A stretch of 64,000 bases of DNA from an uncultured Hyphomonas sp. (GTDB taxonomy: Bacteria; Pseudomonadota; Alphaproteobacteria; Caulobacterales; Hyphomonadaceae), in the NCBI RefSeq assembly GCF_963678195.1, contig NZ_OY782759.1:1488001-1552000 (forward strand), given 5' to 3'. A program made the translations under genes and the position numbers. The notes under the pieces were generated by a model that made no database searches, was not told the DNA's origin, and saw nothing but the letters and a program-made list of their open reading frames with translations. Within the stretch, counting starts at the first letter, position 1, and each line of letters opens with the position of its first letter. This document shows, piece by piece, positions 3,823-21,039 of this stretch.

Positions 3823-6800
3823 TCAACGAGCGCTTGCTTCCGGATCAGGGGTCAAGATTGGCCATGGATTGCCTGACGCTAGATCTGGATGACGCGGTTC
3901 GTCCTCGGGAGCGCCGTAGTCGTCTCGGAAGTTCTGGATCGTGCGGAGCGTGCGAGCGGCAGCGTCGGTCTTTCCCCCATCGGTCGTCATGGCGAGTAGC
4001 TTAGCGCGTAGTTCGGTCGCCGACACCGGAATGACGTCGAATGCGCCCTTCCACTGCTCCGAAGGGACGTGATCGGTGATCGCGCGCTGAATGGTGCGCC
4101 ATGAAACGAATTTCTGCTCGAGCTTGTTCTCCAGCTCGATAAGCAACAGCAAGCCCTCGGGATCGACGGTTTCTGCTACGGCGCGGATCAAAACCTTCAG
4201 GCGAGGATGATCGCCCGCCTTGAGTGTTGCATAGGCTTCCGTGCGCAGCTCGGCGTGCGCGTTCAACAGATCGCCCAACACCTCCGCCATATGCCAACCG
4301 CCGTGCCCGTCGTTTTGGATCGTCCCGTTCAACACAAGATCGAGATAGCGCTTCGCGGCGCTGAGTGTCTTCCGGTGTAAGACGGCGTTGCGCCATGCAT
4401 AGTTGCCGTAAAATTTCGGGTTGTCCTCAGCGAGCGCGAAGAGCGCTTCCTCCGCTTCCGGAGCGGCGGTGAATTCCGTTGCCTTGACCATTTCCTCCAA
4501 GAATTCGGGATCACGCTGATGGCCGGTTAGGCCTCGGATAATGTCGAGCATGAGCGCAGGCCGGTCGGTGAACGGCAGCAGCTTGAGCCATGCCTTCAAC
4601 TGGTGACCTTCGGACAGTATCCACGGGCGCTTTTTCGCCTCTTCGAAGAGGTCTTCGATACCTTTCTTCACGATGTCGAAGGAGACCGTTTTGCCCGACA
4701 TTATCAGGTTGAAGACGAAAGTGGTTCGCGCCCGCTGGGGTGTCGCGGCCAACAAGTCGAATATCATTTCAGGCCTGTCGCCGTGCGGCAGGCGCGCGGC
4801 TTGAATCGCGAGCGCGAGCGCGTGCTTTCTCTGGTCCTCTGTTGCTCCGTCGGCGGTGAGCAAGTCGATCGTCTCAAACATCGCTTCGGCTTCATCGCAG
4901 GTGCTGGCGTGATTTTCGGCGTAGGCTGCGCGCTTGTCTTCGATACCCGCGAACTCGGGTGGGCCGAAGGGCGTGCCTTTCTCAGGCTTCGGCTCGTTTT
5001 CCTTGATCCACTGAACCTTCATTACGATGGCGGCAACCTCGCCGAAAAGCTCTTCAGGCAGATATTCGCGCATCATCGCCGTGGTTTCAGGAGCGACAAT
5101 CACCGTGAAGGCGTCTTTATAGGCAGTGTCGTATAGCATGCGCGATTCCTGCAGTGCTCGCTCATCCCGCTGTTCCGAAGCGCGCACTCGTTCGCGAAAA
5201 TGCTTTATGCGGCGCAGTTCTTCATCGAGTAGCCGTTTCAATACCGGTAGAAGCTCGACGGAGGGACATTTGGCCGCCAACCACGCCACTGACGCAAGGT
5301 GGTGGCGCTTCGCTAGGTCGCCCATCGACAAAAGGCGATCGGTCCAATCGCGGATGAGGTCGTTCATCGCCGCGTGTGCGGCGTTGTCGAAGGGCCTGCC
5401 GCGATCGATCTCGTCGTCCCTGCGCTTGAGGATGTTCGCCATTTCGGCGACGTGCTCCGGCGAGGCGTCCTTGGCACGAGCTTGTATCGCGCTGACCAAA
5501 CTCGATCCGGGCGTATGGCCGATTCGCATGCGCAGAACGCCGTGCCAGGTGCCCGCCGCCTTGTCGTACTTACCTCCGGGACGCAGGCAGTCATGGACTT
5601 CGAGATAAGCGTCGATCAGTTTTCCAACCGAAATCGGCCCGAGCACGGACGCTGCGGCTTCGGCGTGAGAGTTGGAGTGTCCACCTGGCTCAAGCGCGAT
5701 AGCAAGAAGCGCATCGTCTTCGACGACGATGCCCGACATGGCTAGTATGTCGTCCGCCCTGAAATAGATTTCCGATCCCTTGCGCACACGCTGGAGGAGC
5801 CCTTGTGCAACTGCGCGCGGATAGAGTTTGCCCGCTTCGAAGAGCAGCCCGCCGACGGATTGATATTCGTCGCGCTCCATTGGCATGGACGCGACGAGCG
5901 CTTCCACATCGTTGCTGCGATCGGCGGGGCTCTGGGCGTAGATCATTGCGCGCAGCCGGGCATATTCAGTCGAACCTTCGGCTTCCTGCCGCTCTCGCGC
6001 GTCCTGAAGATCTTGCTGTACCTGCGGGTCTTCCGCACTTTCAATGAAACCCTTGCTGACGACGAGATCAAAAGTCTTTGCGCTTGCGCCGCGTAGGACT
6101 TCCTCAACGTGCCGGTCCGCGCGGCGGAACGACAGCGCGTCGAGCACAGCAGCCTGCACTTCCGGATCGGGGTCCGACCTGGCGAGGGATGTTGCTAGAT
6201 CAAGGCCTTCGATGCCGCTGTTTGACGCGATTTCGTGCAGGAGGACCAAGCGGGGCTTGGAAGGCAAAGCCTTGATACGCCTGACTGCGTCCGAACCGAG
6301 TATAGAGGGGCGGAAGCTCCTGCAATGGCGGATCGCCTTGAGGCTGACCTGATCGTTTTCATCGACCAGCAGCGGCCAAACCTTGTCGAGGAATTCCGGG
6401 CGCCCGGTGGTGAGCATGAAGCGGAAAGCACCATCCACGGTGCCAGGCGCGTGCCAGCGCGCCACATAGCCCTCGATTGTGGGCGCGACGGATTTCCAAA
6501 CATCGTCAGTTGCGCGGAAGATCATGTCAGCGGCGAGGATGGGATCGACCTCGAACGCCGCGACAATCGCCTTGGCGCAGATCGCGCGTTGGTGCGCGTC
6601 TCCGCGCGATAAGCGTTCGACCGCGAACATGATCGCTTCCTCCCATGCAGGGAGATTGAAGACTTCCGATTTGAACCATTCGCGCGCCTCCGGATCGTCA
6701 AGTTCGGCGAGCATACGTTCTTCGACGGAGCGCGAGGCGAACCATTCTTGAATCTGCTGGTGCTGGAAGGATACCGCCTGCGCGTCGCCGGCGCGCATGA

Positions 6801-8169
6801 GAAGATGATCGCTGACCAGCACGTCGAGCACGTCGCTGGGCTCCGGCCTGACCATAATCTGTCCATTGTCCACGAGCATGGCGGATGTCGCGTTGATCTG
6901 CGCGCGAGCGTTGGTGTCTGTAATTGCGGTGTTCGCCGTCTGCGTGGCGAAGGTGGCGAGACGGTCCAGATAGTTCTCCGAGAAATCCCACATTACGGCA
7001 CGCAGCCTTTCCGCGTGCCGTGGGTCTTTCTGGTGTGCGGCAACGAAGCAGCGCAGCACTTCCTCTTTTGTGGTCGGGAAAGGAGCGTTGTCAGTCAGTG
7101 TCAAGAGCGCAGTTAGGTAGAGTGGATTGGAAACCAATTCGCGAACACCTGGCGTTCGCCACGCCTGATCTACCATTTTCCTACCAGGATCACCCCACAT
7201 GGCGCTTGCGATTTCCATCTGCTGAACGTCGGTGAGCGGAAGGAGATGGACCTGAGTGCCGCTGAGCGGCACGTCGAGCGCCTGCCTGCGCGTGGAGATC
7301 ATCAGAGCGAGTTCGGGCAATTGCGCCTTGAGTTCCTCGATTTGTATATGGGCGCGCTTGCGTCCCTCGATGTCCAGCTCATTCCAGCCGTCCAGCAGCA
7401 TCACGAAGCCGTTTCCGTCGGCGGCGGCGCGGAATTCCTGTTCGGAAATCCCGTTGAAGGCGGGGCGCGCGAGGATGGATTCGAGAATGGTCTGTGGCTG
7501 TGTTTGCCAGTCGCCCAAGAGCACGACCACGGGCGTGCCGCTGTGACCCGTAAGTACGCTCTCCGCAATCTGGAAGAGCGTCGTTGTTTTACCTGCTCCG
7601 GGAGGCGCGATGAGCATCAGGTCGCCTCGATGGATGACCGCCTCTGCAAGTGCGGCGGTTGTGATGGACTCAGCCACTCCCTCTACCTTGAGACGGAGAG
7701 GGACCGAGGTGGCCGGCCATTTCGCCATCCGGCGGAAAACTTTGAGGTCCGCTTCGGCGGCGGCCCGCAGGCGCGCCGCGAGTGTGGCAGCTACAGGACC
7801 GGCGGTGGGCGCAGGCGGAGAGATGTGGTGCAGCACATCCTGCAAGGATTGCAGTTCTGCTTGGCTTTTCCACCGGCGCAGTATCTCTACGGTGAATTGC
7901 GGATCGTTGGAGTCGATCGCGGCGCCGTGGTTGCGGCACATCCAGATTCCGTTCTGTTCGGAACGGCGTTCTTGCCGCGTCATATTTGGATCGTAGCGGG
8001 GGCCGCCGGGTGCCGCCGCGCAGATATGTGCCGCCGTACCGATGTTGACTTCACCGCCCACGGTCGGCTTGCGGCATTCCGGAAACGAGCACAGCCAGCC
8101 CGCTCGCTTGGCGATCTGGATCTTGGTCCTTTCGGTAAAATCGTCTCTGTTTGTTTTCTTGCTGGGCAC
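3823..8169 (-). CDS. HNH endonuclease-NACHT NTPase fusion, defence-type STAND protein
   Basis: Product of 1448 residues. The N-terminus (about 20-105) is an HNH-like nuclease: Cys27 and Cys32, then AAHIC (His48), Asn73 and Cys78-x2-His81. A NACHT-type NTPase follows: Walker A APPGAGKTTT near 188-197 and Walker B VMLLDGWNEL near 256-265. The remaining ~1000 residues are helical and repeat-like, as in sensor regions of STAND NTPases. Bacterial NACHT proteins are known antiphage effectors, with recognition through the C-terminal repeats and activation of the N-terminal effector. The start is GTG at 8169; no strong ribosome site is visible, but the HNH domain begins shortly after. The gene stands alone on its strand, divergent from the HEPN gene. 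Defence function is inferred from architecture. Confidence 0.8.
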   Translation of the reverse strand: MPSKKTNRDDFTERTKIQIAKRAGWLCSFPECRKPTVGGEVNIGTAAHICAAAPGGPRYDPNMTRQERRSEQNGIWMCRNHGAAIDSNDPQFTVEILRRWKSQAELQSLQDVLHHISPPAPTAGPVAATLAARLRAAAEADLKVFRRMAKWPATSVPLRLKVEGVAESITTAALAEAVIHRGDLMLIAPPGAGKTTTLFQIAESVLTGHSGTPVVVLLGDWQTQPQTILESILARPAFNGISEQEFRAAADGNGFVMLLDGWNELDIEGRKRAHIQIEELKAQLPELALMISTRRQALDVPLSGTQVHLLPLTDVQQMEIASAMWGDPGRKMVDQAWRTPGVRELVSNPLYLTALLTLTDNAPFPTTKEEVLRCFVAAHQKDPRHAERLRAVMWDFSENYLDRLATFATQTANTAITDTNARAQINATSAMLVDNGQIMVRPEPSDVLDVLVSDHLLMRAGDAQAVSFQHQQIQEWFASRSVEERMLAELDDPEAREWFKSEVFNLPAWEEAIMFAVERLSRGDAHQRAICAKAIVAAFEVDPILAADMIFRATDDVWKSVAPTIEGYVARWHAPGTVDGAFRFMLTTGRPEFLDKVWPLLVDENDQVSLKAIRHCRSFRPSILGSDAVRRIKALPSKPRLVLLHEIASNSGIEGLDLATSLARSDPDPEVQAAVLDALSFRRADRHVEEVLRGASAKTFDLVVSKGFIESAEDPQVQQDLQDARERQEAEGSTEYARLRAMIYAQSPADRSNDVEALVASMPMERDEYQSVGGLLFEAGKLYPRAVAQGLLQRVRKGSEIYFRADDILAMSGIVVEDDALLAIALEPGGHSNSHAEAAASVLGPISVGKLIDAYLEVHDCLRPGGKYDKAAGTWHGVLRMRIGHTPGSSLVSAIQARAKDASPEHVAEMANILKRRDDEIDRGRPFDNAAHAAMNDLIRDWTDRLLSMGDLAKRHHLASVAWLAAKCPSVELLPVLKRLLDEELRRIKHFRERVRASEQRDERALQESRMLYDTAYKDAFTVIVAPETTAMMREYLPEELFGEVAAIVMKVQWIKENEPKPEKGTPFGPPEFAGIEDKRAAYAENHASTCDEAEAMFETIDLLTADGATEDQRKHALALAIQAARLPHGDRPEMIFDLLAATPQRARTTFVFNLIMSGKTVSFDIVKKGIEDLFEEAKKRPWILSEGHQLKAWLKLLPFTDRPALMLDIIRGLTGHQRDPEFLEEMVKATEFTAAPEAEEALFALAEDNPKFYGNYAWRNAVLHRKTLSAAKRYLDLVLNGTIQNDGHGGWHMAEVLGDLLNAHAELRTEAYATLKAGDHPRLKVLIRAVAETVDPEGLLLLIELENKLEQKFVSWRTIQRAITDHVPSEQWKGAFDVIPVSATELRAKLLAMTTDGGKTDAAARTLRTIQNFRDDYGAPEDEPRHPDLASGNPWPILTPDPEASAR

Positions 8170-10347: not shown

Positions 10348-10381
10348 AATGTGGATTGAGTGATGCGGCTGTTGTTTGCCA

Positions 10382-11356
10382 ATGAGCAGTGAAGTTGGCG
10401 CTGTCATTTCGCCCAGAATAGGGCTGGTACCTGGATTGATGCTGGGAGTGTCGGTTCTAGCAGTGGGCCCACTTGTGGCCATGTCTAGTCCATGGGGTGC
10501 CCGCCTGGGCGGGCCTGCGATATTTGCCTTGGGTATTGGGCTGGTGCTGACCGTCCGCCGAATTGGTTGGGGTAAGGCGGTGCTAGTGATTTGGCTGGGG
10601 CTCTTTACATTTTTAGCAGGCGTGTCCGTGCGCACGATCAGTGAGGAAAAGCACCACCTTGCTTCTCTTCGAAAAGCTGATGCTGCGGCTTACAAGGAAT
10701 ACGTTGAGGTCCACGCCACAGATAGCCGGGTGCGAGCGGCCCTAAAGGAGGTCGATGCTGCAGAGTACGAGAACCTCCTTAACCAGGAGGCCGCCACTGC
10801 CGCCGAGCAACAGCGCTTGAGGGATGATCAGCAGCTTGCGGAGGTGCTGCAGAAATCCCCTCACATGTGGCTGGCGAAGCTCCAGGAACTGCGGCCGGTC
10901 GAATACCAGCAGGTAATGACCGACAGGGCAGCTCGAATTGCTGATTTGGACAAGGAAGTGCGAGCCATACCAGCTGCTGACTTAGAGAAAAACCTTGATC
11001 TCTATCGTCAACTTGTGGCGCTCGATCCAAAGAACGAGCGGTATGTGAGTAAGTACTTGGACTATGAGCACAAGGTTGGTGTTCGCGAGTGGCAGCTAGC
11101 TGCATGTACCACCGGATATCCCGAGGACGAGGCGGGGCAAAATGCAAAGGAGTTGGTCAAGCAGACGCTCAAAGCTCCGAGCACGGCAAAGTTCCCATTC
11201 ATTTTGCGGGGCGAATACAAAGGGGATTGCCAGTTTGTCGTACGATCGTGGGTGGATGCTCAAAATGGCTTTGGAGCCCAGGTTCGAACTTACTATACTG
11301 TGACGATGATACGCTCGAAAAGTGGTTGGCATCTGGTAAGCATGGAGATCAGCTAG
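10382..11356 (+). CDS. Membrane-anchored coiled-coil protein of unknown function
   Basis: Product of 324 residues from the ATG at 10382; an in-frame TTG at 10376 is also possible. About three hydrophobic segments lie in residues 10-85. A long charged helical stretch (about 88-235), rich in Ala, Glu and Lys, follows and is probably coiled coil. The C-terminal ~85 residues include KQTLKAPSTAKFP and SWVDAQNGFGAQVR, a pattern seen at the C-termini of assorted uncharacterised membrane proteins, with one Cys pair that could be a disulfide. I do not know a function. The divergent XRE gene and shared palindrome suggest repression. Confidence 0.6.
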   Translation: MSSEVGAVISPRIGLVPGLMLGVSVLAVGPLVAMSSPWGARLGGPAIFALGIGLVLTVRRIGWGKAVLVIWLGLFTFLAGVSVRTISEEKHHLASLRKADAAAYKEYVEVHATDSRVRAALKEVDAAEYENLLNQEAATAAEQQRLRDDQQLAEVLQKSPHMWLAKLQELRPVEYQQVMTDRAARIADLDKEVRAIPAADLEKNLDLYRQLVALDPKNERYVSKYLDYEHKVGVREWQLAACTTGYPEDEAGQNAKELVKQTLKAPSTAKFPFILRGEYKGDCQFVVRSWVDAQNGFGAQVRTYYTVTMIRSKSGWHLVSMEIS

Positions 11357-12977: not shown

Positions 12978-13501
12978 CCGCCGCCACTCATCTGAAAGAT
13001 CCAATTTCAGACGTGGACCCTGTGCACCTAGCATCACAATCCCAATGAATAGAACTTTGCTTGATCAAGGATGTTGGTTGGGCCCCCTAACTTGCTGCCA
13101 ACAATCGTGACAATTACGATCGACCAACCGAAAATGTCACACGGGCCCCGTGTGACAAAAATGCGGGCCTCGTGGTCGGAACTCTTTGGAGGATATGGCT
13201 TTTGTCCTGTATCGAAGGCGCCTTCTAGCTAAAGCAGGTTACAGGAAGTGCTGTTTGTGATTTTTCCGGAGGTGCAGTTTGTCCGTACTCGCGATGTTCC
13301 CCGTATAGCATGAATTGCGGCAGGTGGTTGGTGCAGTAGGCCTGCGCGCTCACCAGAAGCCGAGACTGGCTCGACTTTGTCTAAAGCACCCGCCTGATGG
13401 CCGCCAGAATTGAGGTTCCGGCTTGGCCCGGCCGCACAATTGTTGACATGGGGAAAGAAGACCGCCCTAATCAGTTATACTTTGGGTAGGGAAGTGCGAC
13501 G
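12978..13501. other. Intergenic region with palindrome between rep-like gene and YcaO cluster
   Basis: About 520 nt with no convincing gene. A small imperfect hairpin (CTGAAA/TTTCAG) follows the rep-like stop codon. The perfect palindrome at 13135-13157 is listed separately. TTGACA at 13443 and TATACT at 13476 resemble promoter elements, but their spacing (about 27 nt) is too long for one sigma-70 promoter. The segment must hold the promoter of the gene at 13502. Confidence 0.5.
13135..13157. repeat. Perfect 23-bp palindrome
   Basis: The arms TGTCACACGGG and CCCGTGTGACA are 11 bp, perfectly complementary, with a single central C. It lies 158 nt after the replication-initiator-like gene. A cruciform of this type is common at rolling-circle origins, resolution sites and dimeric operators. 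Only four T follow it on the minus strand and none on the plus strand, so a terminator is less likely. Confidence 0.8.
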
Positions 13502-14554
13502 ATGCCGCTTTCGGGCGCTCAGATTGATGCATCCAACGAGCTGCGCGACCTCCTTGAGCGCAAATTCCCCTCCGCAATGCTTGATGAAGACGTCCAGCAA
13601 GTAATGGACAGTTTGTTTTCGGAGGGAGATGGTAATGCCTTACTTTATGAGCCAATGCTTGAACTCGTTGGGAAATATGTCGACGCTACATTATTGACCG
13701 AAACCGACATGCCGGACTGCTGCACTTTCCACCGGCACACAGCCCAACGTGTCGCCGGTGCCTTCTGCGCTCCCCCGAATGCGTCCCCAGAAATTGAAAA
13801 ACGACTCTTTGTCGATCTAGTTTCGGTGGTTTGCGCTATCCTTGACCGCCATCAGGTTCATAAGGAACTCTACGAGCAAACGTCTGGGCGGCCCGAAATT
13901 GGGAATTATATTGGCAGGAACGTATCTACGCCAATCAAGGTATCGAGGCTTATTCCGTTGATGGCATTCGCTAGCAATTACTTGCCCCGCCGCCCGGAAG
14001 GGCTTGGACCAATATCTGCTGATGAAACCAGCCTTTCGCCTTTCGGCGAGTGGCTCGCATTTGCCATGGACTGCGGGCGTGATAGCAGTGAGCGTCAGGA
14101 GCTACTCTTTGGTGGCCGCTATGGTGCGCCACGAGGATACTGGGGAGCTCATATTGATACAGAAGCGTCACCAGGATTTGCGAGCTATTGCAGGCACGCC
14201 AGCGCATTTTGTGTTCTCTTCGGCAGCATCCAAAATTTGGATGCGTACCTTCGTCGGGACTTGCATGCCCTGTTTGATGAATTGGGTGTGCCAGGGGAGC
14301 AGAGGCGGGGGCACTATGTCGAGGCAACTTATCATGTCCCAATGTATGTTCCAGGCCAAAGATCCGGGCTGAGGACGCCAGGATTTTTGGATGCTGGCGG
14401 GTACCCGCAATGGCGCCCGAGAGGCCACACGCTTGCATTGAGGGGAGACGCAGTGCCCGGCGCAGGTTGCTTTGAGCTTGTTCACTCGCCGATCCGAATC
14501 TGTCGAGACCAGATCGATTTTCGATTTTGGCGCAACACGAGGACTCCCTCATGA
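13502..14554 (+). CDS. Unrecognised protein, first gene of the YcaO cluster
   Basis: Product of 350 residues with no domain I recognise. It is soluble by appearance, with no signal peptide or membrane segment. GGGAAG lies about 9 nt before the ATG. Residues in the second half are rich in Gly, Tyr, His and Trp (for example GGRYGAPRGYWGAHIDTEA), which could form a beta-rich or metal-binding domain, but this is a weak impression. It is 39 nt upstream of the next gene and on the same strand as the permease and YcaO genes, so it is likely co-transcribed. Its function should be sought with the YcaO protein. Confidence 0.6.
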   Translation: MPLSGAQIDASNELRDLLERKFPSAMLDEDVQQVMDSLFSEGDGNALLYEPMLELVGKYVDATLLTETDMPDCCTFHRHTAQRVAGAFCAPPNASPEIEKRLFVDLVSVVCAILDRHQVHKELYEQTSGRPEIGNYIGRNVSTPIKVSRLIPLMAFASNYLPRRPEGLGPISADETSLSPFGEWLAFAMDCGRDSSERQELLFGGRYGAPRGYWGAHIDTEASPGFASYCRHASAFCVLFGSIQNLDAYLRRDLHALFDELGVPGEQRRGHYVEATYHVPMYVPGQRSGLRTPGFLDAGGYPQWRPRGHTLALRGDAVPGAGCFELVHSPIRICRDQIDFRFWRNTRTPS

Positions 14555-14593
14555 TAGGCCCCGGAGTAATGAGGATAGCGGGAGGCGCGCGGC

Positions 14594-16261
14594 TTGACTG
14601 ATCCTGCGGCGCCTATTGCTGGGCCGGGCTTGCCTATTGCTGACCGGGAGCGGCTAGTTGAGGAGGAGCTTTTGGAGTGCCTTCAGAGCTGGCAGGGCAG
14701 GCTGGCATGCCGCCTCAGCATTCTCGATGTCCTTTGCCGCTTGATGGAAGAAGACCGCGCTATTGAGCTGGCGTTCGCACAAAGGCTTGTCGCGGAAGTG
14801 CGCCCTGACCTGTATTTCGTTATTGCGCGCCTTTTTGTTGAAGTCCGTTTGCTCGCGCTGCGCATGAATGCTGGGCAAGCAGATCAGCCCGCTGTCATTT
14901 GGGATGTGTCCAGCTGGTTCCTGGGCCAGACAGCCTATGTGATTCAGTATTTTGTCGATCAGGATGCGCGGGATCCTGCGGGTGGGAAAGCGGAATTCGC
15001 GATGCGGGATGTCCGTTCCATCCTGAGCCTTTTTGCCAATGCCTTGGGAGAAGACCATCACGGCTCGATTGACATGATTGAACATGTTCGGGATGCACTT
15101 GCATCGACCGAGTTGCCACCAGAAGCGGTGTTCAACATCGAGGACAAGTTGCACGCGATCGAATTCAAACGGCCGCGTCTTTGTGCTTTTGGTAGCCGGA
15201 AGTCTCCGGTTCGGTTTGTCTCAGCAACTGAGATTGCGGAACTGCTCGAAAGTCGGCGTGACGTCATCAACCACAAGTTCCACGACCTGACCAACAGGGA
15301 TCTTTTTGACGCCTTGGAGCAGTTGATCCGGCATGATCAAACCATCCTCGTGAATTGGATCCCTTTTGCGGAACAAACGCCGTTCTCGCTGTTTTTCGGA
15401 CTTATTCAATATTTGGCGCGGGCAAGGGGAAGAGCAAAAATAGCGGTAGAGTTCGTCCCTATGAAGATGGAGGAGGCCCGTCCCGCCCTGGCTAACGAAG
15501 ACCTGACCGTTGCAATTTCAAACAGCGAGCTTTGCGATCGCATTGACTATGTAGGGCGAAGCGCAAACGTGATTGCCCGGGATCCTTGCTTCGTCTCAAG
15601 CTCGCTCATCAAGTATTCTGGATACGGAGTTCTTGCGAAGCAGGAAACGGTGTTCGAGCTTGGGGGTGACCTCGGAGAGAGCGACCAAAAGCGAGCCTTG
15701 CTCGAAAGGCTCGGGAGACGAAACTCAACCACCGACGTCTATTTCAGCTCGCTCGAGTTCGCGAGGATGGCTCAGGGCGCAGGCTTGCGGCGCAGGCGAT
15801 TTAAAGACCTCGATGAAGTCGAAGATTCCCTTTCGGCGTTCTTAAATTCGGCTGACGCTGTCTATTTCGACGGCGCCGTGCAAATTCGCTACCTCGCACG
15901 GATTTTTTCTTCCAAGGTCGTTGCGTTCCCAAAACTGCTCGAAACTGCTCAGGTCCAGGCTTTCTTGCTCACCAGGTCCAGGCTTCCCGCCTCTCCAACG
16001 GCCCTCGGCGATTTTGCGGCGGGCTTCTTGCCGGAAAAGCTCAATGAGGTGATATTCAGGATTTGGGAAGTGGCACGCGAGCTGACTGCAGAAGTTTTTG
16101 ATACGGCAAGCAGCGCCCCTGATCCGCTCATAAAAAAAGTGCGCCGGGGATTCCGTCACGATATGAGCCTATACAGTACCGACTTGATCGTTTCGGACTT
16201 CGCCAGCGTGGCAAATGCCTTTAAAGAACATTCTAACATCCTAGCCGAGGGGCAAGCCTGA
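14594..16261 (+). CDS. Unrecognised protein, possibly with a periplasmic-binding-protein-like fold
   Basis: Product of 555 residues. The start is TTG at 14594, with GGGAGG 8 nt upstream. Residues ~1-200 are helical. Residues ~250-480 alternate strands and helices in a way that resembles a type 2 substrate-binding fold, with segments such as GRAKIAVEFVPMKMEEA and DADAVYFDG-like loops. There is no signal peptide, so any such domain would be cytoplasmic. The stop codon overlaps the start of the permease gene (TGATG), which implies translational coupling. I cannot name a function. The coupling suggests it works with the transporter, perhaps sensing or handing over its substrate. Confidence 0.55.
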   Translation: MTDPAAPIAGPGLPIADRERLVEEELLECLQSWQGRLACRLSILDVLCRLMEEDRAIELAFAQRLVAEVRPDLYFVIARLFVEVRLLALRMNAGQADQPAVIWDVSSWFLGQTAYVIQYFVDQDARDPAGGKAEFAMRDVRSILSLFANALGEDHHGSIDMIEHVRDALASTELPPEAVFNIEDKLHAIEFKRPRLCAFGSRKSPVRFVSATEIAELLESRRDVINHKFHDLTNRDLFDALEQLIRHDQTILVNWIPFAEQTPFSLFFGLIQYLARARGRAKIAVEFVPMKMEEARPALANEDLTVAISNSELCDRIDYVGRSANVIARDPCFVSSSLIKYSGYGVLAKQETVFELGGDLGESDQKRALLERLGRRNSTTDVYFSSLEFARMAQGAGLRRRRFKDLDEVEDSLSAFLNSADAVYFDGAVQIRYLARIFSSKVVAFPKLLETAQVQAFLLTRSRLPASPTALGDFAAGFLPEKLNEVIFRIWEVARELTAEVFDTASSAPDPLIKKVRRGFRHDMSLYSTDLIVSDFASVANAFKEHSNILAEGQA

Positions 16262-17472
16262 TGAAAGATGATGTCCACGTTATTTCGCCTGAAAACAGGA
16301 AACCTGCTTGGCTACTGCTCGGGGTTTGGATGGGGTTTATCGTCGTTGCCGGCACAATGGTCGCCGGCGGTTCCCTGACCCAGTCATTCAGTTTCGGGAA
16401 TATCGTCGTCCTGACCCTGGTGGCCAATGTCCTACTCGGGGGCATAGCGGCGGTCTTTGGTTATGTCGGTGCGACGACTGGGAGCTCCTTCGCCCATTTG
16501 AGCCGGCTGGCCTTTCCAGGCGTGTCTCACAGGTTGGTATCGCTCTATGTGCCGATCGTGTTGACGTTCTGGTTTGCTGTGCTCGCCTCGATCCTCGGAC
16601 AATACTTGGTGGGAACCTTTCATTGGAACGATAGCTACACGGTGCCGATATCCATGGCGCTGTGCTTCCTGCTTAGCGTAACTTCATATTTCGGAATCCA
16701 GCACCTCGGAATTTTAAGCGCGATTACCGTGCCATTGATCGTGATCCTGGGGAGTTATGCTGTCGCCGTCTCGCCAATTACGGGGCAAGAGGCTGCTTCG
16801 CAGATCGGCAGCATTTCCGCTGTGAACACTGGCCTTGGCGTGATTGTCAGTACCTGGATCATGGGTGCAACGCTGAACATCCCAGACATTACCCGCTTTG
16901 CAAGGAGCGGACGTGCCGGGGCGCTTATTGGCCTTGCGGGCATTGTCGTTGGTAACAGCTTCAACATCATTATCGGGGCGAGGGCAGCCCTTATCGGCGG
17001 GACTGCAGACCCGGGCCCATTGCTGCTCGCCTTGGGATTGCCGGCCCTCGGCTTCGTGTTCGTCGTCGCAAATCTCTGGACAACGAATGACAACAATATG
17101 TACTCGGCGTCCCTCGGGCTTTCGGAAGCGGGGCAGGTATCGAGGAGGCGGTCGGTCCTTATCCTAGCGAGCATCGCAGCCGTGCTTGTTCTCTTCAATG
17201 TCGGCAACCTCCAGACAATCATGTCTGGAATCCTGCTCATGGGGGCGACCGCGCCTGCCCTCGCGGCGGTTGTCTTGTCGAGCTACCTATCACGGAAAGT
17301 TGAGGCAGGTGCCAGTAGCGTCGGATTCCCGTGGCAAGCGTGGGTGGCGTGGTTTGGCGGGGCGGCCATCAGCTTGAATGTGGAGGGGATTTTGGGTCTA
17401 GTAGTTGGCACGATATCAGCATTTGCCATTCATCGAGGGTTAAGTTACGCAATGCAAGCTATACGAAATTGA
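16261..17472 (+). CDS. NCS1-family permease (cytosine/purine permease-like)
   Basis: Product of 403 residues with about 12 hydrophobic segments. The stretch WTTNDNNMYSASLGLS is the hallmark of CodB-type NCS1 permeases, which import nucleobases, hydantoins or thiamine precursors with H+ or Na+. The N-terminal AGTMVAGGSLTQSFSFGN loop also fits the family. The gene overlaps the upstream gene by 1 nt and ends 16 nt before the ribosome-site-bearing ORF at 17489. Placement in a YcaO cluster is unusual. Import of a small heterocycle for the cluster's product, or export of a product, are both possible readings. Confidence 0.8.
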   Translation: MKDDVHVISPENRKPAWLLLGVWMGFIVVAGTMVAGGSLTQSFSFGNIVVLTLVANVLLGGIAAVFGYVGATTGSSFAHLSRLAFPGVSHRLVSLYVPIVLTFWFAVLASILGQYLVGTFHWNDSYTVPISMALCFLLSVTSYFGIQHLGILSAITVPLIVILGSYAVAVSPITGQEAASQIGSISAVNTGLGVIVSTWIMGATLNIPDITRFARSGRAGALIGLAGIVVGNSFNIIIGARAALIGGTADPGPLLLALGLPALGFVFVVANLWTTNDNNMYSASLGLSEAGQVSRRRSVLILASIAAVLVLFNVGNLQTIMSGILLMGATAPALAAVVLSSYLSRKVEAGASSVGFPWQAWVAWFGGAAISLNVEGILGLVVGTISAFAIHRGLSYAMQAIRN

Positions 17473-17488
17473 GGAATTGGAGAGCAAC

Positions 17489-17617
17489 ATGGTTGCGATC
17501 GTAACGCTAGATGCCAAAAAGGTCCGCCGAGAGCGACCGAAAGTATACATCCTGGCGGCTGCGCAAGGGAAAAAGTTCGCATTCCGTTCCGTTTGCGGGA
17601 AGGCTGCGGTCTGTTAG
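17489..17617 (+). CDS. 42-residue ORF: candidate precursor peptide or displaced YcaO N-terminus
   Basis: The ATG at 17489 has a good ribosome site (GGAGAG, 5 nt upstream), better than anything before the long YcaO reading frame it overlaps. The peptide is basic in its first half (KKVRRERPK) and ends FRSVCGKAAVC, with Ser and two Cys in the last nine residues. This is a plausible core for YcaO-type heterocyclisation. Equally, it reads like the start of a folded domain (RPKVYILAAAQGKKFAF) that would join the YcaO frame after a single +1 shift near 17590-17615. In that case the true YcaO gene starts here and is frameshifted in this sequence. I cannot decide between the two. Confidence 0.4.
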   Translation: MVAIVTLDAKKVRRERPKVYILAAAQGKKFAFRSVCGKAAVC

Positions 17618-19115
17618 CCGGGGCGGTAGCGTGTATTTGAGCTTGGCGGCCAGCTGCGGAATCATTTTCCACGAGGGCGCAGAGGCAGAAAAGCTCATTG
17701 AGTTCCATGCAGACACTCACTCGCGGCGGCGAGTGTTATCGGCTGTTCTGAACGACACATTCTCTGACCTAACGCCTGAAGAACTGGCTTTAAGAGACGC
17801 TGTCGTTTCACAGCTTGGCCAGAGCATAATTTCTGAGCTCAGGAAGTCACCTTCTACACTGACGCTTCCATCCGCGCTCCTGAAGTTCGATTTTGATATC
17901 CCTCTTGATGTGATTTTGCAGCAGGCTGACGATCGGCTGCTCCGGGATAGCGCCGAAATTTGCCAGGCGTTGGAAATTCGATTTGAGCAGAGAGAAGATC
18001 GGTGCCTATCTGATGCCGGTGTCACTGTCCTGGAAGTCTTGCGCGACGATGATGCGGTTGTCGCTGAGGGCAAGGGGATGGGGCGGGAAGCATCAACGTT
18101 GTCCGCCTTGGGTGAGGCCATTGAACGCTTCTGTTTGGAGATGCCAGACCTTGCTGATTCCTTCTTCGGCAGTCAGACCCAGTTAGAGACGCAAGATGTA
18201 CTTGTACCATCTATGGACCTCGGCACCTATGACTGCTTCCATCGGGAATTGCCATTGCGCTGGTTGCCGGGCCGGACATCCCGCAATGAAGTAGTTGCAA
18301 TTCCTGCCGATTTGGTGAGCACATCGATCGAGCCGTTCGGCCCTGCAAAAGTGTTTGCATTTCAGAGTACCGCAGGGGTTGCTTGCGGACCGACGCCGGA
18401 ATTTGCGGCGTATCGAGCACTAGCGGAAGTGATCGAAACGGACGCCTACGCCCTGCACGTGCGGTTAGGCGTATACGACGAACAGCTGGAGATTGATGCG
18501 CTCGGGTTTGATAGTTCCCTGGGCGACCTCGTTGAATGTGTTCAGCGGCAGGGTATTGAGATAAAGGCATACCTAATTCAGTTCGACCACCTGTTTCCCG
18601 TGGTTCACTGCGTTCTTGTAAATAGGAATGGACGGTTACCGGCTCTGGCTCACGGGCTAGGTTCGGGATTTAGTATCAACGCTGCGATGAAAACGTCTCT
18701 AGTTGAGGCGCTCCAGGTTTTCTCAGATCTAACCAAGATTTCCAGCCTCTGTCTCGAGGAAAGTATTTTTCCTGCACAAACACAAAAGCACCCAGAATTG
18801 TATTGGATCGATCCTGCGAACCAGGAAGAGATACTGTCCGTTCTGCAATTCAAGAAGTCAGTCGGTATAAAGAGAAAAACCAGCCCGGTGACGGATGTAA
18901 GCCTGGCAAGCATGATTGACTTCGAAGAGAACGCTCTGGGGCAGATAAGTTTTTATCCGGTCGGATATCCACGCTTTGGCCAGCATGTCGTCAAGGCATA
19001 TGCAGAACGGCAGGTGTTGCTGCATGACCTTACCAAGAGTCCGCAGAGCCGGTTGCGGCTGTTTATGAAGCGCAACGGAATCGATCGTGAGAGCAAAATT
19101 CCGATTCTGACCTGA
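17511..19115 (+). CDS. YcaO-domain ATP-dependent amide-activating enzyme
   Basis: Product of up to 534 residues. YcaO ATP-binding motifs are clear (numbered from 17511): GKGMGREASTLSALGEAIER at 187-206, TAGVACGPTPEFAAYRALAE at 287-306 continuing into a VIETDA stretch, and GFSINAAMKTSLVEALQ at 386-402. Residues ~40-100 could be a small winged-helix recognition domain. The C-terminus ends KIPILT and lacks the PxPxP tail of azoline cyclodehydratases. YcaO enzymes phosphorylate backbone amides to make azolines, thioamides or amidines. The ATG at 17511 follows an in-frame stop and has no ribosome site. GTG at 17631, just after the overlapping ORF, is an alternative start, and so is a frameshifted start at 17489. 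No ThiF/E1 or TfuA partner is adjacent. Confidence 0.8.
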   Translation: MPKRSAESDRKYTSWRLRKGKSSHSVPFAGRLRSVSRGGSVYLSLAASCGIIFHEGAEAEKLIEFHADTHSRRRVLSAVLNDTFSDLTPEELALRDAVVSQLGQSIISELRKSPSTLTLPSALLKFDFDIPLDVILQQADDRLLRDSAEICQALEIRFEQREDRCLSDAGVTVLEVLRDDDAVVAEGKGMGREASTLSALGEAIERFCLEMPDLADSFFGSQTQLETQDVLVPSMDLGTYDCFHRELPLRWLPGRTSRNEVVAIPADLVSTSIEPFGPAKVFAFQSTAGVACGPTPEFAAYRALAEVIETDAYALHVRLGVYDEQLEIDALGFDSSLGDLVECVQRQGIEIKAYLIQFDHLFPVVHCVLVNRNGRLPALAHGLGSGFSINAAMKTSLVEALQVFSDLTKISSLCLEESIFPAQTQKHPELYWIDPANQEEILSVLQFKKSVGIKRKTSPVTDVSLASMIDFEENALGQISFYPVGYPRFGQHVVKAYAERQVLLHDLTKSPQSRLRLFMKRNGIDRESKIPILT

Positions 19116-19570: not shown

Positions 19571-19895
19571 CGCCAGCCACACCCCGGAACAGAGAACACT
19601 ACACTCACCCCCGCGCAAAGCCCCGCACACCGCGGGCTTTGGCGCCAGGGCTGCGTCTCCGTTTCCGGAACAGGGGAGATTTTGCGCTCGAAATTTGCCG
19701 CCGTCTCCAATCGCCAAAAGCAACAGTACCCTCAGGCCGGATTTCCCTGATAACCCGCGATTTACAGGGATAATCGGCAAAATAACAGGGAAACGCCCCG
19801 CAGCGCACCTGGAAACACGCGTTACCGCCCACCATCCTTTTCAAGGCATTGTGGCTTTCCGCCGTGAATTCGGTCTGTAGACCGGCCCGCCGGTC
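19571..19895. repeat. Dispersed repeat, copy A (core 283 bp)
   Basis: The core 19613-19895 aligns along its whole length with copy B at 20757-21039, also 283 bp, with scattered substitutions. A 5' extension from about 19571 is shared with copy C at 60229. The core opens with a strong hairpin, CAAAGCCC...GGGCTTTG, followed by a conserved run ending GTTTCCGGAACAGG. No convincing protein is encoded. A minus-strand ORF across it is Arg/Ser-rich and of the type often mis-annotated in such repeats. Confidence 0.75.
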
Positions 19896-19896
19896 G

Positions 19897-20049
19897 CAGA
19901 CCGCCTTCCTGCTAACTGAAGAAGACTGGCCAGAGCTAGCTCCCGGCTTGGCAAAGGACCTTTATTCCGTGCCAAGGCAGTCGCTTGAGGCCAGGTGCAT
20001 TGAGAAAAATGCCAAACTGGTTATCGATGAGACCGGCATTGTCTTCTGA
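19897..20049 (+). pseudogene. Possible 3' gene fragment abutting repeat copy A
   Basis: Directly after the repeat, an open frame of about 50 codons reads naturally (LLTEEDWPELAPGLAKDLYS ... VIDETGIVF) and ends at 20049. It has no start of its own outside the repeat. It may be the end of a gene cut by the repeat. No family is recognised. Confidence 0.25.
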
Positions 20050-20082
20050 ACCTGGTCAATTTTGCTAGCGGAGTTTCATCCC

Positions 20083-20589
20083 ATGCCGAGTGGAAAACAG
20101 ATTCTCCTATCTCAGCTGACCGAATACTCGCAGCGCCGAACCGCTGGGGATGAGATTGAAACCGCCAGTGAACGGATCAGGGCCGGCCTGCTCCTGCACG
20201 GGTCTACCTCACACCAGATGTGGAAAACAGTTTCTCATCTCGCATGGGTCCAAAGTCACAATCATACGGAAGGCCGACCGCCCTACCTTGAAAGGCAAGG
20301 ATTGGGGCTTGGGAAGTCTGGCCTTCTTCTGAGTGATTTGTTCGAAGCCCTCACCGATAATCCGGCAATAGCCGAGGCGCTCGTAACCGATGACCCGAAA
20401 CTGTCGAAGGACAGCGTACAGGCGGGCTTGCATGTGATCTGGCTGCTCCTCAAGGCGCTGGAATGGTCGAAAGCCCATGAGGCGGTCGAGATGGATGGAA
20501 GTTTCAGTGAAAATCGCAAGACGCAGCTGATCGCGAGCTATGTCGACAAACTCAAGGCGTTCGAAGCAAATCCGGATGATTTTTCATGA
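20083..20589 (+). CDS. Small soluble protein of unknown function
   Basis: Product of 168 residues. The ATG at 20083 follows GGAG at 9 nt; an upstream TTG at 20062 has no ribosome site. The protein is mostly helical, with several Trp and a middle section with His and Gly (LAWVQSHNHTEGRPPYLERQ). No family is recognised. It lies between the two 283-bp repeat copies, so the pair could have mobilised it or amplified around it. Confidence 0.5.
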   Translation: MPSGKQILLSQLTEYSQRRTAGDEIETASERIRAGLLLHGSTSHQMWKTVSHLAWVQSHNHTEGRPPYLERQGLGLGKSGLLLSDLFEALTDNPAIAEALVTDDPKLSKDSVQAGLHVIWLLLKALEWSKAHEAVEMDGSFSENRKTQLIASYVDKLKAFEANPDDFS

Positions 20590-20756
20590 GATGGCGCTGA
20601 TAGGTCTGCAGCACCTCCCTGGCTTTCCTGCATTCATCCATGCGAATTCAGGGCCTCTTCCATAAAGCAATCGGGGGCGGGCTGGTCCGGTTTAACCCGG
20701 ATCTTCGCTTCGATATTCGAGCCTGTCGATGGCGGTCTTATGGCTCGTAATGCCTA

Positions 20757-21039
20757 GCGCAAAGCCCCATACACTGCGGGCTTTGGCGTCAGAGCTGCGT
20801 CTCCGTTTCCGGAACAGGGTAGATCTTGCGCCCGAAATCCGCCGCCGTCTCCAATCGCCAAATGCAACAGTACCCTCAATCCCGATTTCCCTGAGAATCC
20901 GAGGGATGCAGGGAAAATCGTCAAATTAGCAGGGAAACGATCCGTAGCGCGCCTGGAAACAAAAGTTACCGTCCACTATCCTTTTCTAGGCATTGTGGCT
21001 TTCCGCCGTGAATTCGGTCTGTAAATCAGCCCGCCGGTC
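20757..21039. repeat. Dispersed repeat, copy B (283 bp)
   Basis: This is in the same orientation as, and the same length as, the core of copy A. It opens with the hairpin CAAAGCCC...GGGCTTTG and ends GTGAATTCGGTCTGTA...GCCGGTC. The two copies bracket about 860 nt holding one small gene. The rest of the 20590-21126 interval holds nothing else that I can support. Confidence 0.75.

Follow-up and report, generated by a model that had tools for sequence, protein, structure and literature searches.

A YcaO gene beside an NCS1-type permease gene in an uncultured Hyphomonas sp., a candidate accessory module with one recurrence in a distant alphaproteobacterium

The settings in which YcaO enzymes are known are few and are defined, in each case, by the partner of the enzyme, and the question raised by the locus described here is what such an enzyme does next to an NCS1-type permease. 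The locus lies in a window of 64,000 nucleotides (G000:C1:1488001-1552000, contig NZ_OY782759.1) of the genome of an uncultured Hyphomonas sp., which consists of a single contig of 3.67 Mb, and all positions of its features are those of the window. Four consecutive genes on the same strand, with short gaps or overlaps, had been described by the first-pass annotation, and this layout was borne out by the coordinates of the ORFs, all of which are on the plus strand and open along their whole length. These were an ORF of 350 aa whose family was not recognised (P1, 13502..14554), an ORF of 555 aa with a TTG start (P2, 14594..16261), an NCS1 permease of 403 aa distant from CodB (16261..17472) and a YcaO protein originally called as an ORF of 534 aa (17511-19115). 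P1 and P2 are separated by 39 nt, P2 and the permease overlap by 1 nt, and a gap of 38 nt lies between the permease and the YcaO ORF when the latter is taken from 17511. The reported absence of ThiF/E1, TfuA, dehydrogenase and protease genes beside the cluster agreed with Pfam scans of neighbour proteins (3 others in one scan and 9 in a second one), none of which belonged to these families, while the neighbour ORF at 3823-8169 was covered by the PADLOC scan only. Furthermore, no Rfam match was found at the gathering threshold between 12900 and 20200. An inverted repeat of 10 pairs with a T-rich tail on the minus strand was observed at 13135-13157, around 345 nt before P1, and may be a terminator or an operator.

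Regarding the recurrence of the cluster, PF02624 was found in 53 of 385 genomes of the class (own genome included), at a total of 61 YcaO places. Forty YcaO regions were fetched with wide flanks (up to 19 kb, some shortened by contig ends), and 18 of the 61 places were outside this wide set, 15 of which were viewed with 1.5-kb flanks. Among the 40 wide regions and 30 short loci, only one, named L044, had an NCS1 match at E<0.1. It is located on contig JANQMY010000336.1 of the metagenome-assembled genome PL25b_bin.64, from a distant member of the Alphaproteobacteria, for which a completeness of 97% and a contamination of 10% are listed. As the contig of L080 is that of L044, the two count as one independent recurrence. 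Its permease was 43% identical to that of the window over the whole length (3.5e-98), and its YcaO was 29% identical, with an E-value of 9.8e-32 that was by far the best, followed by 1.6e-10. Moreover, the order and strand of the permease and YcaO genes were identical in both loci. A third gene of L044 (8121-9500), divergent from the permease, encodes a protein of 459 aa without family, and an integrase gene and an FRG-domain gene adjoin the cluster on the same contig. The taxonomic order of this genome was represented by two genomes in the set, the other one being without a match. A YcaO profile yielded matches in 52 of 398 genomes of the phylum (own included), with 67.7 bits for the best other one, and no third member was found among them. 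Contigs were also searched with short exact patterns, which miss distant members; those from the YcaO sequence alone gave 27 pattern matches and no relative, and those from a C-terminal alignment gave 32 pattern matches and only L044's own contig.

The permease matched PF02133 (5.5e-14, 52.3 bits against a cut-off of 23.5) and had CodB as a solved relative (7qoa, 5.2e-24), which, together with the residues of the Na2 site, supported the NCS1 assignment initially made. The roles of the sodium-site and aromatic-sandwich residues were assigned after PMC9379551 and mapped on 7qoa, with the sodium-site residues G25, N271, T274 and T275 and the sandwich positions W104 and W199 being kept. Thus, the window permease resembles CodB in its family, its sodium site and the Trp of TM3 (CodB Trp108), while it differs from it in scoring 156.7 bits against the CodB cut-off of 326, in having Phe204 replaced by Trp, as in Mhp1, and in having Leu (L101) at the position of Gln105, as also found in the L044 permease. 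In CodB, Gln105 contacts cytosine and its loss sharply lowers cytosine transport (PMC9379551). Since the sodium site and the sandwich are kept and Gln105 is Leu, the permease is predicted to be sodium-coupled and to take up a flat ring compound, though not cytosine. Carriers of the NCS1 family can transport unusual compounds such as metformin (PMC13390362). A profile built from the window and L044 permeases matched 10 of 318 genomes of the class at 1e-20, scoring 763.8 bits in the own genome and 871.3 bits in L044, two matches that add no new case as both sequences built the profile. The next score was 141.3 bits (L144), in a region where a comparison with the window YcaO gave nothing at E 0.1. 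Neither a third member nor a close permease relative lacking a YcaO was found by this profile in the 318 genomes, and no plasmid matched the permease at 1e-20.

P1 and P2 had been described as two unrecognised proteins, and nothing meaningful was indeed found for them in Pfam, NCBIfam, PHROGs or PADLOC. In particular, P1 had no Pfam match better than E 0.24, no NCBIfam match better than 0.092 and no PHROGs match, while P2 had no Pfam match at E 1, no NCBIfam match and a best PHROGs match of 0.09. Homologues of P1 were not found in plasmids, in the PDB or in the fetched YcaO loci, nor was a counterpart found in L044. Its codon signal decreased from 0.18 at the 5′ end to -0.10 at 14352, and because of this fading towards the 3′ end it is the least certain gene of the cluster. 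A relationship of P1 to P2 or to the third protein of L044 was rejected over the whole proteins, as 36 of 1000 shuffles were as good (127 of 1000 with other gap costs), and it is not claimed for the N-terminus, where 5 and 10 of 1000 shuffles were as good in local alignments but 662 of 1000 in the end-free global one. P2 was found only in its own genome among 385 genomes of the class, in its own genome together with one chance match among 299 genomes of the phylum, in no plasmid and, by pattern, in no viral contig. A local alignment of P2 with the third protein of L044 scored 66, compared with a mean of 37 for shuffled sequences, of which 1 in 1000 did as well; this likeness was not detected by BLASTP. 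The co-occurrence of four genes considered by the first-pass annotation held for the permease and the YcaO in one distant genome, with P2 being only weakly matched and no counterpart being found for P1. The C-terminal half of P2 and the 459-aa protein of L044 showed, as judged by eye, the same two-lobed layout of binding proteins. When a profile of both was compared with the PDB, PhnD phosphonate-binding chains were the top two of three matches, with non-significant E-values (0.27 and 0.28) and a doubtful register. In hhalign comparisons with 13 solute-binding proteins (from 13 of 19 loci, kept by length), the P2 half reached a probability of 0.9% (E 0.06) and the L044 half one of 3.8% (E 0.011), each above its own 20 shuffles and at different places of the profile. 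As a weak hypothesis, the C-terminal half of P2 might adopt the fold of type 2 periplasmic-binding proteins.

The YcaO matched PF02624 with an E-value of 4.8e-35 (121.9 bits against a curated cut-off of 25.7, covering profile positions 2-270 of 325) and was the sole YcaO found in the host genome. It ends in SKIPILT, so the earlier description as a YcaO without a PxPxP tail was correct. All seven columns invariant in 53 other YcaOs, a count that left out four fragment rows, were kept (G187, E202, E205, P265, G289, E306 and E399); these columns are linked to ATP binding. E309 was also kept. Two positions deviated in the window protein, which had T at position 310, where 50 of the 53 others had R, and F at position 298, where E was the commonest residue (34 of 53), with L044 having R and E, respectively. 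Moreover, the P-G pair at 505-506 was absent from both the window and L044 YcaOs, with P being present in 49 and G in 44 of 52 others. The YcaO is predicted to use ATP, though less certainly in the case of the window copy.

Its start is most likely GTG 17631 (codon 41) rather than ATG 17511, given the L044 start, the codon scores and the ORF that fits in the freed space. The ATG of the L044 YcaO corresponded to window codon 40, within one codon of GTG 17631, when counted back manually from the first well-aligned block, as MAFFT spread the first four residues of L044 upstream across a gap. The codon-usage score was -0.06 for the 39 codons of 17511-17628 and +0.10 for 17631-17760, the reference for 42-codon stretches of P2, the permease and the YcaO being 0.135 on average in frame (sd 0.08) and around -0.12 off frame. 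The GTG is preceded by GGGG. With the YcaO revised to 17631..19115, a candidate small ORF of 42 aa, possibly a precursor peptide, is found at 17489..17617 on the plus strand, with GGAG located 6 nt before its ATG; its codon score (+0.018) was the best of the three frames, yet intermediate. Thus, the earlier count of four genes stood for the four ORFs, whereas the YcaO start at 17511 did not, and the total could be five.

Taken together, the permease and the YcaO are probably part of a real yet uncharacterised pathway, the pair having one independent recurrence. The reading that we prefer, tentatively and with somewhat less than even confidence, is that of a rare, horizontally mobile accessory module in which the import of a heterocycle by a distinct NCS1 carrier would be coupled to the reaction of a divergent YcaO. 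In this mechanism, the permease would import the flat ring compound, one that is not cytosine, along with sodium, and cytosolic P2 would hold or deliver it by means of its solute-binding-protein-like half, and the YcaO would spend ATP on activating an amide, most plausibly in the small peptide encoded upstream, with the imported compound serving as the other reactant, an effector or a signal. The YcaO could have the small peptide as its target, or else the compound that is imported. Against this reading, there was one recurrence only, in an assembly with 10% contamination, the small ORFs were unlike each other and had intermediate codon scores, the window YcaO had T310 and F298 and lacked the P-G pair, the fold of P2 was not statistically established, and P1 had no counterpart in L044. 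Furthermore, NCS1 carriers are not known to belong to RiPP clusters.

The first alternative is a plain RiPP cluster, in which the 42-aa peptide (62-aa in L044) would be the precursor, the YcaO would make an azoline, a thioamide or an amidine, and the permease would be an accessory for self-protection or uptake. We consider it possible, if on the unlikely side. In its favour, a small ORF was found directly before the YcaO in both loci, that of L044 (6398-6586, 62 aa) occupying the same slot after the permease and having a codon score of 0.071, compared with 0.122 (sd 0.038) for the L044 genes in frame and around 0 off frame. The window peptide ends in SVCGKAAVC, with two Cys, and the substrates of the YcaOs characterised so far are peptides or proteins. 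However, the L044 peptide contains no Cys, and the similarity of the two peptides on visual inspection was not upheld by the alignment (score of 19, with 4496 of 10000 shuffles being as good). Regarding the conserved small ORF that was to be sought in homologous clusters, the slot was shared and the peptides were not detectably alike, and a new RiPP-type pathway, as initially proposed, is one possible reading. In addition, no RRE-type profile appeared among the NCBIfam matches, and neither a C/E1 partner nor the TfuA, dehydrogenase or protease of such clusters was found beside the window cluster.

The best NCBIfam match of the window YcaO was that of the SagD-type TOMM cyclodehydratases (TIGR03604), the score of 84.3 bits being below the cut-off of 219.25, and it differs from them in ending in ILT and in having neither the C/E1 partner nor the dehydrogenase found next to it, a PxPxP end being the mark of TOMM azoline cyclodehydratases. 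For the S12/uL16-type YcaO (NF040716), 17.5 bits were obtained against a cut-off of 700. The window and L044 YcaOs joined as a clade of their own with a support of 100/97 in a careful tree of 59 YcaOs and with an SH-aLRT of 99 in a quick tree of 64 rows, four fragment rows having been dropped before both trees and five long-branch rows before the careful one; the deeper placement is unsure because the branches are long. Placing the window row alone among 26 TfuA-side rows was rejected (p-AU of 0.0099), although this group was named after the tree was seen and L044 was not moved along, so part of the force of the test comes from the window-L044 join itself. TfuA was confirmed beside all seven checked rows of that side. 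Hence, the tight grouping with TfuA-type or ribosomal-protein-type enzymes that would have spoken against the first-pass annotation was not observed. The OsmC-YcaO rows (L057 and L058) were also separate from the window YcaO in the trees. In L062 (6969-8798), a fusion of TfuA and a clostripain-family peptidase (PF07812 and PF03415) adjoins a YcaO, and L145 (5654-11965) harbours three YcaO ORFs in around 6.3 kb of one genome (G543).

The next nearest tree row to the window-L044 clade was the YcaO of a Levilactobacillus brevis plasmid (NZ_CP113122.1), with a bootstrap of 95 but an SH-aLRT of 46 for the join. This plasmid had the best E-value (2e-16) among the 36 plasmid records matching the window YcaO and was the only one matched by the L044 YcaO at 1e-8, while its partners differ from those of the window, being an arginase-family protein and an MFS carrier. 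The three genes overlap (L077, 5332-9508) and are flanked on both sides by IS30-type transposase genes.

A second alternative is a small-molecule pathway, in which the YcaO would activate an amide or lactam of the imported heterocycle itself. Of the proteins present in both loci, the importer was the most conserved (43% vs. 29%), the aromatic sandwich is kept and half of P2 may have a ligand-binding fold, while the presence of a small ORF in both loci argues against it, and we know of no YcaO acting on a free small molecule; this pathway is regarded as improbable. With equally little probability, the preferred module might represent a new class of YcaO, the second reactant of which would be neither sulfide nor an internal side chain, and would rather be a flat heterocycle that a dedicated NCS1 importer supplies and that P2, as a cytosolic partner resembling a binding protein, passes on in a TfuA-like role, with the YcaO joining it to the small peptide or modifying it directly. 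In thioamide RiPP systems, TfuA serves the second reactant of the YcaO. The likeness proposed here is thus that of a YcaO with a partner for this reactant, the difference being that TfuA lies beside the YcaO in those systems, which were common in the class sample, and was not found among the scanned neighbours here.

With respect to mobility, the window was compared with six regions of the same genus, and the cluster itself had no DNA match in any of them. The DNA shared with one of them (G041) starts at 19820, while the rightward block of the other five starts at 20965 or 20983, one of which has 19893-20731 elsewhere. In G041, this break is located within a tRNA-Val(TAC), at its 3′ end, and the last 15 nt of this tRNA are retained in the window (19820..19834, plus strand, an exact match to the same-genus tRNA-Val), so that the cluster ends on its right at a tRNA-Val island boundary. 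An intact tRNA-Val was not found in the window or in the 60 kb to its left, and a frame of the integrase type (PF00589) was observed immediately outside the left edge of the window (G000:C1:1487490).

The third alternative, also with a low probability, is that the cluster is decaying or was assembled by chance within a variable island, with a YcaO that is losing its function and genes that are neighbours by accident. The island boundary favours this reading, as do T310 and F298 of the YcaO and the orphan P1 with its fading codon signal. Moreover, only the own genome had a YcaO match among 150 genomes (own included), two further weak matches (L003 and L004) being due to chance; these and L006, as a P2 relative, were discarded, their ORFs being neither YcaO nor P2. 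On the other hand, the ORFs are open throughout, and chance adjacency is hardly likely because the permease-YcaO pair, its order and its strand recur at a great sequence distance.

Two defence-like genes were observed on the left side of the cluster, one coding for a protein with a NucS-type endonuclease domain (240-2204) and the other for a protein of 1448 aa (3823-8169) with a match to HNH-type PADLOC models at its N-terminus, and the C-terminus of a 326-aa protein (10376-11356) matches phage families of unknown function (best of 8e-12). Despite these defence-like genes, a defence system was rejected for the cluster, as no PADLOC match (0.01) was obtained for P1, P2, the window YcaO, the L044 YcaO or the third protein of L044.

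The combination had been presented as one not previously known, in agreement with the literature searched, where no paper dealing with both YcaO and NCS1 was found; subscription papers were mostly outside its scope, so this is no proof of novelty. In the literature covered, YcaO together with 'cytosine permease' led only to an apparently unrelated paper on stress in E. coli, and the word 'permease' occurs 0 times in the accessible text of each of PMC4603692 and PMC8120280. If the preferred reading is true, a heterocycle importer with a binding-protein-like partner would point either to a second reactant of novel origin or to a YcaO that would be the first with a small molecule as substrate, and the locus offers a compact gene set for experimental tests.
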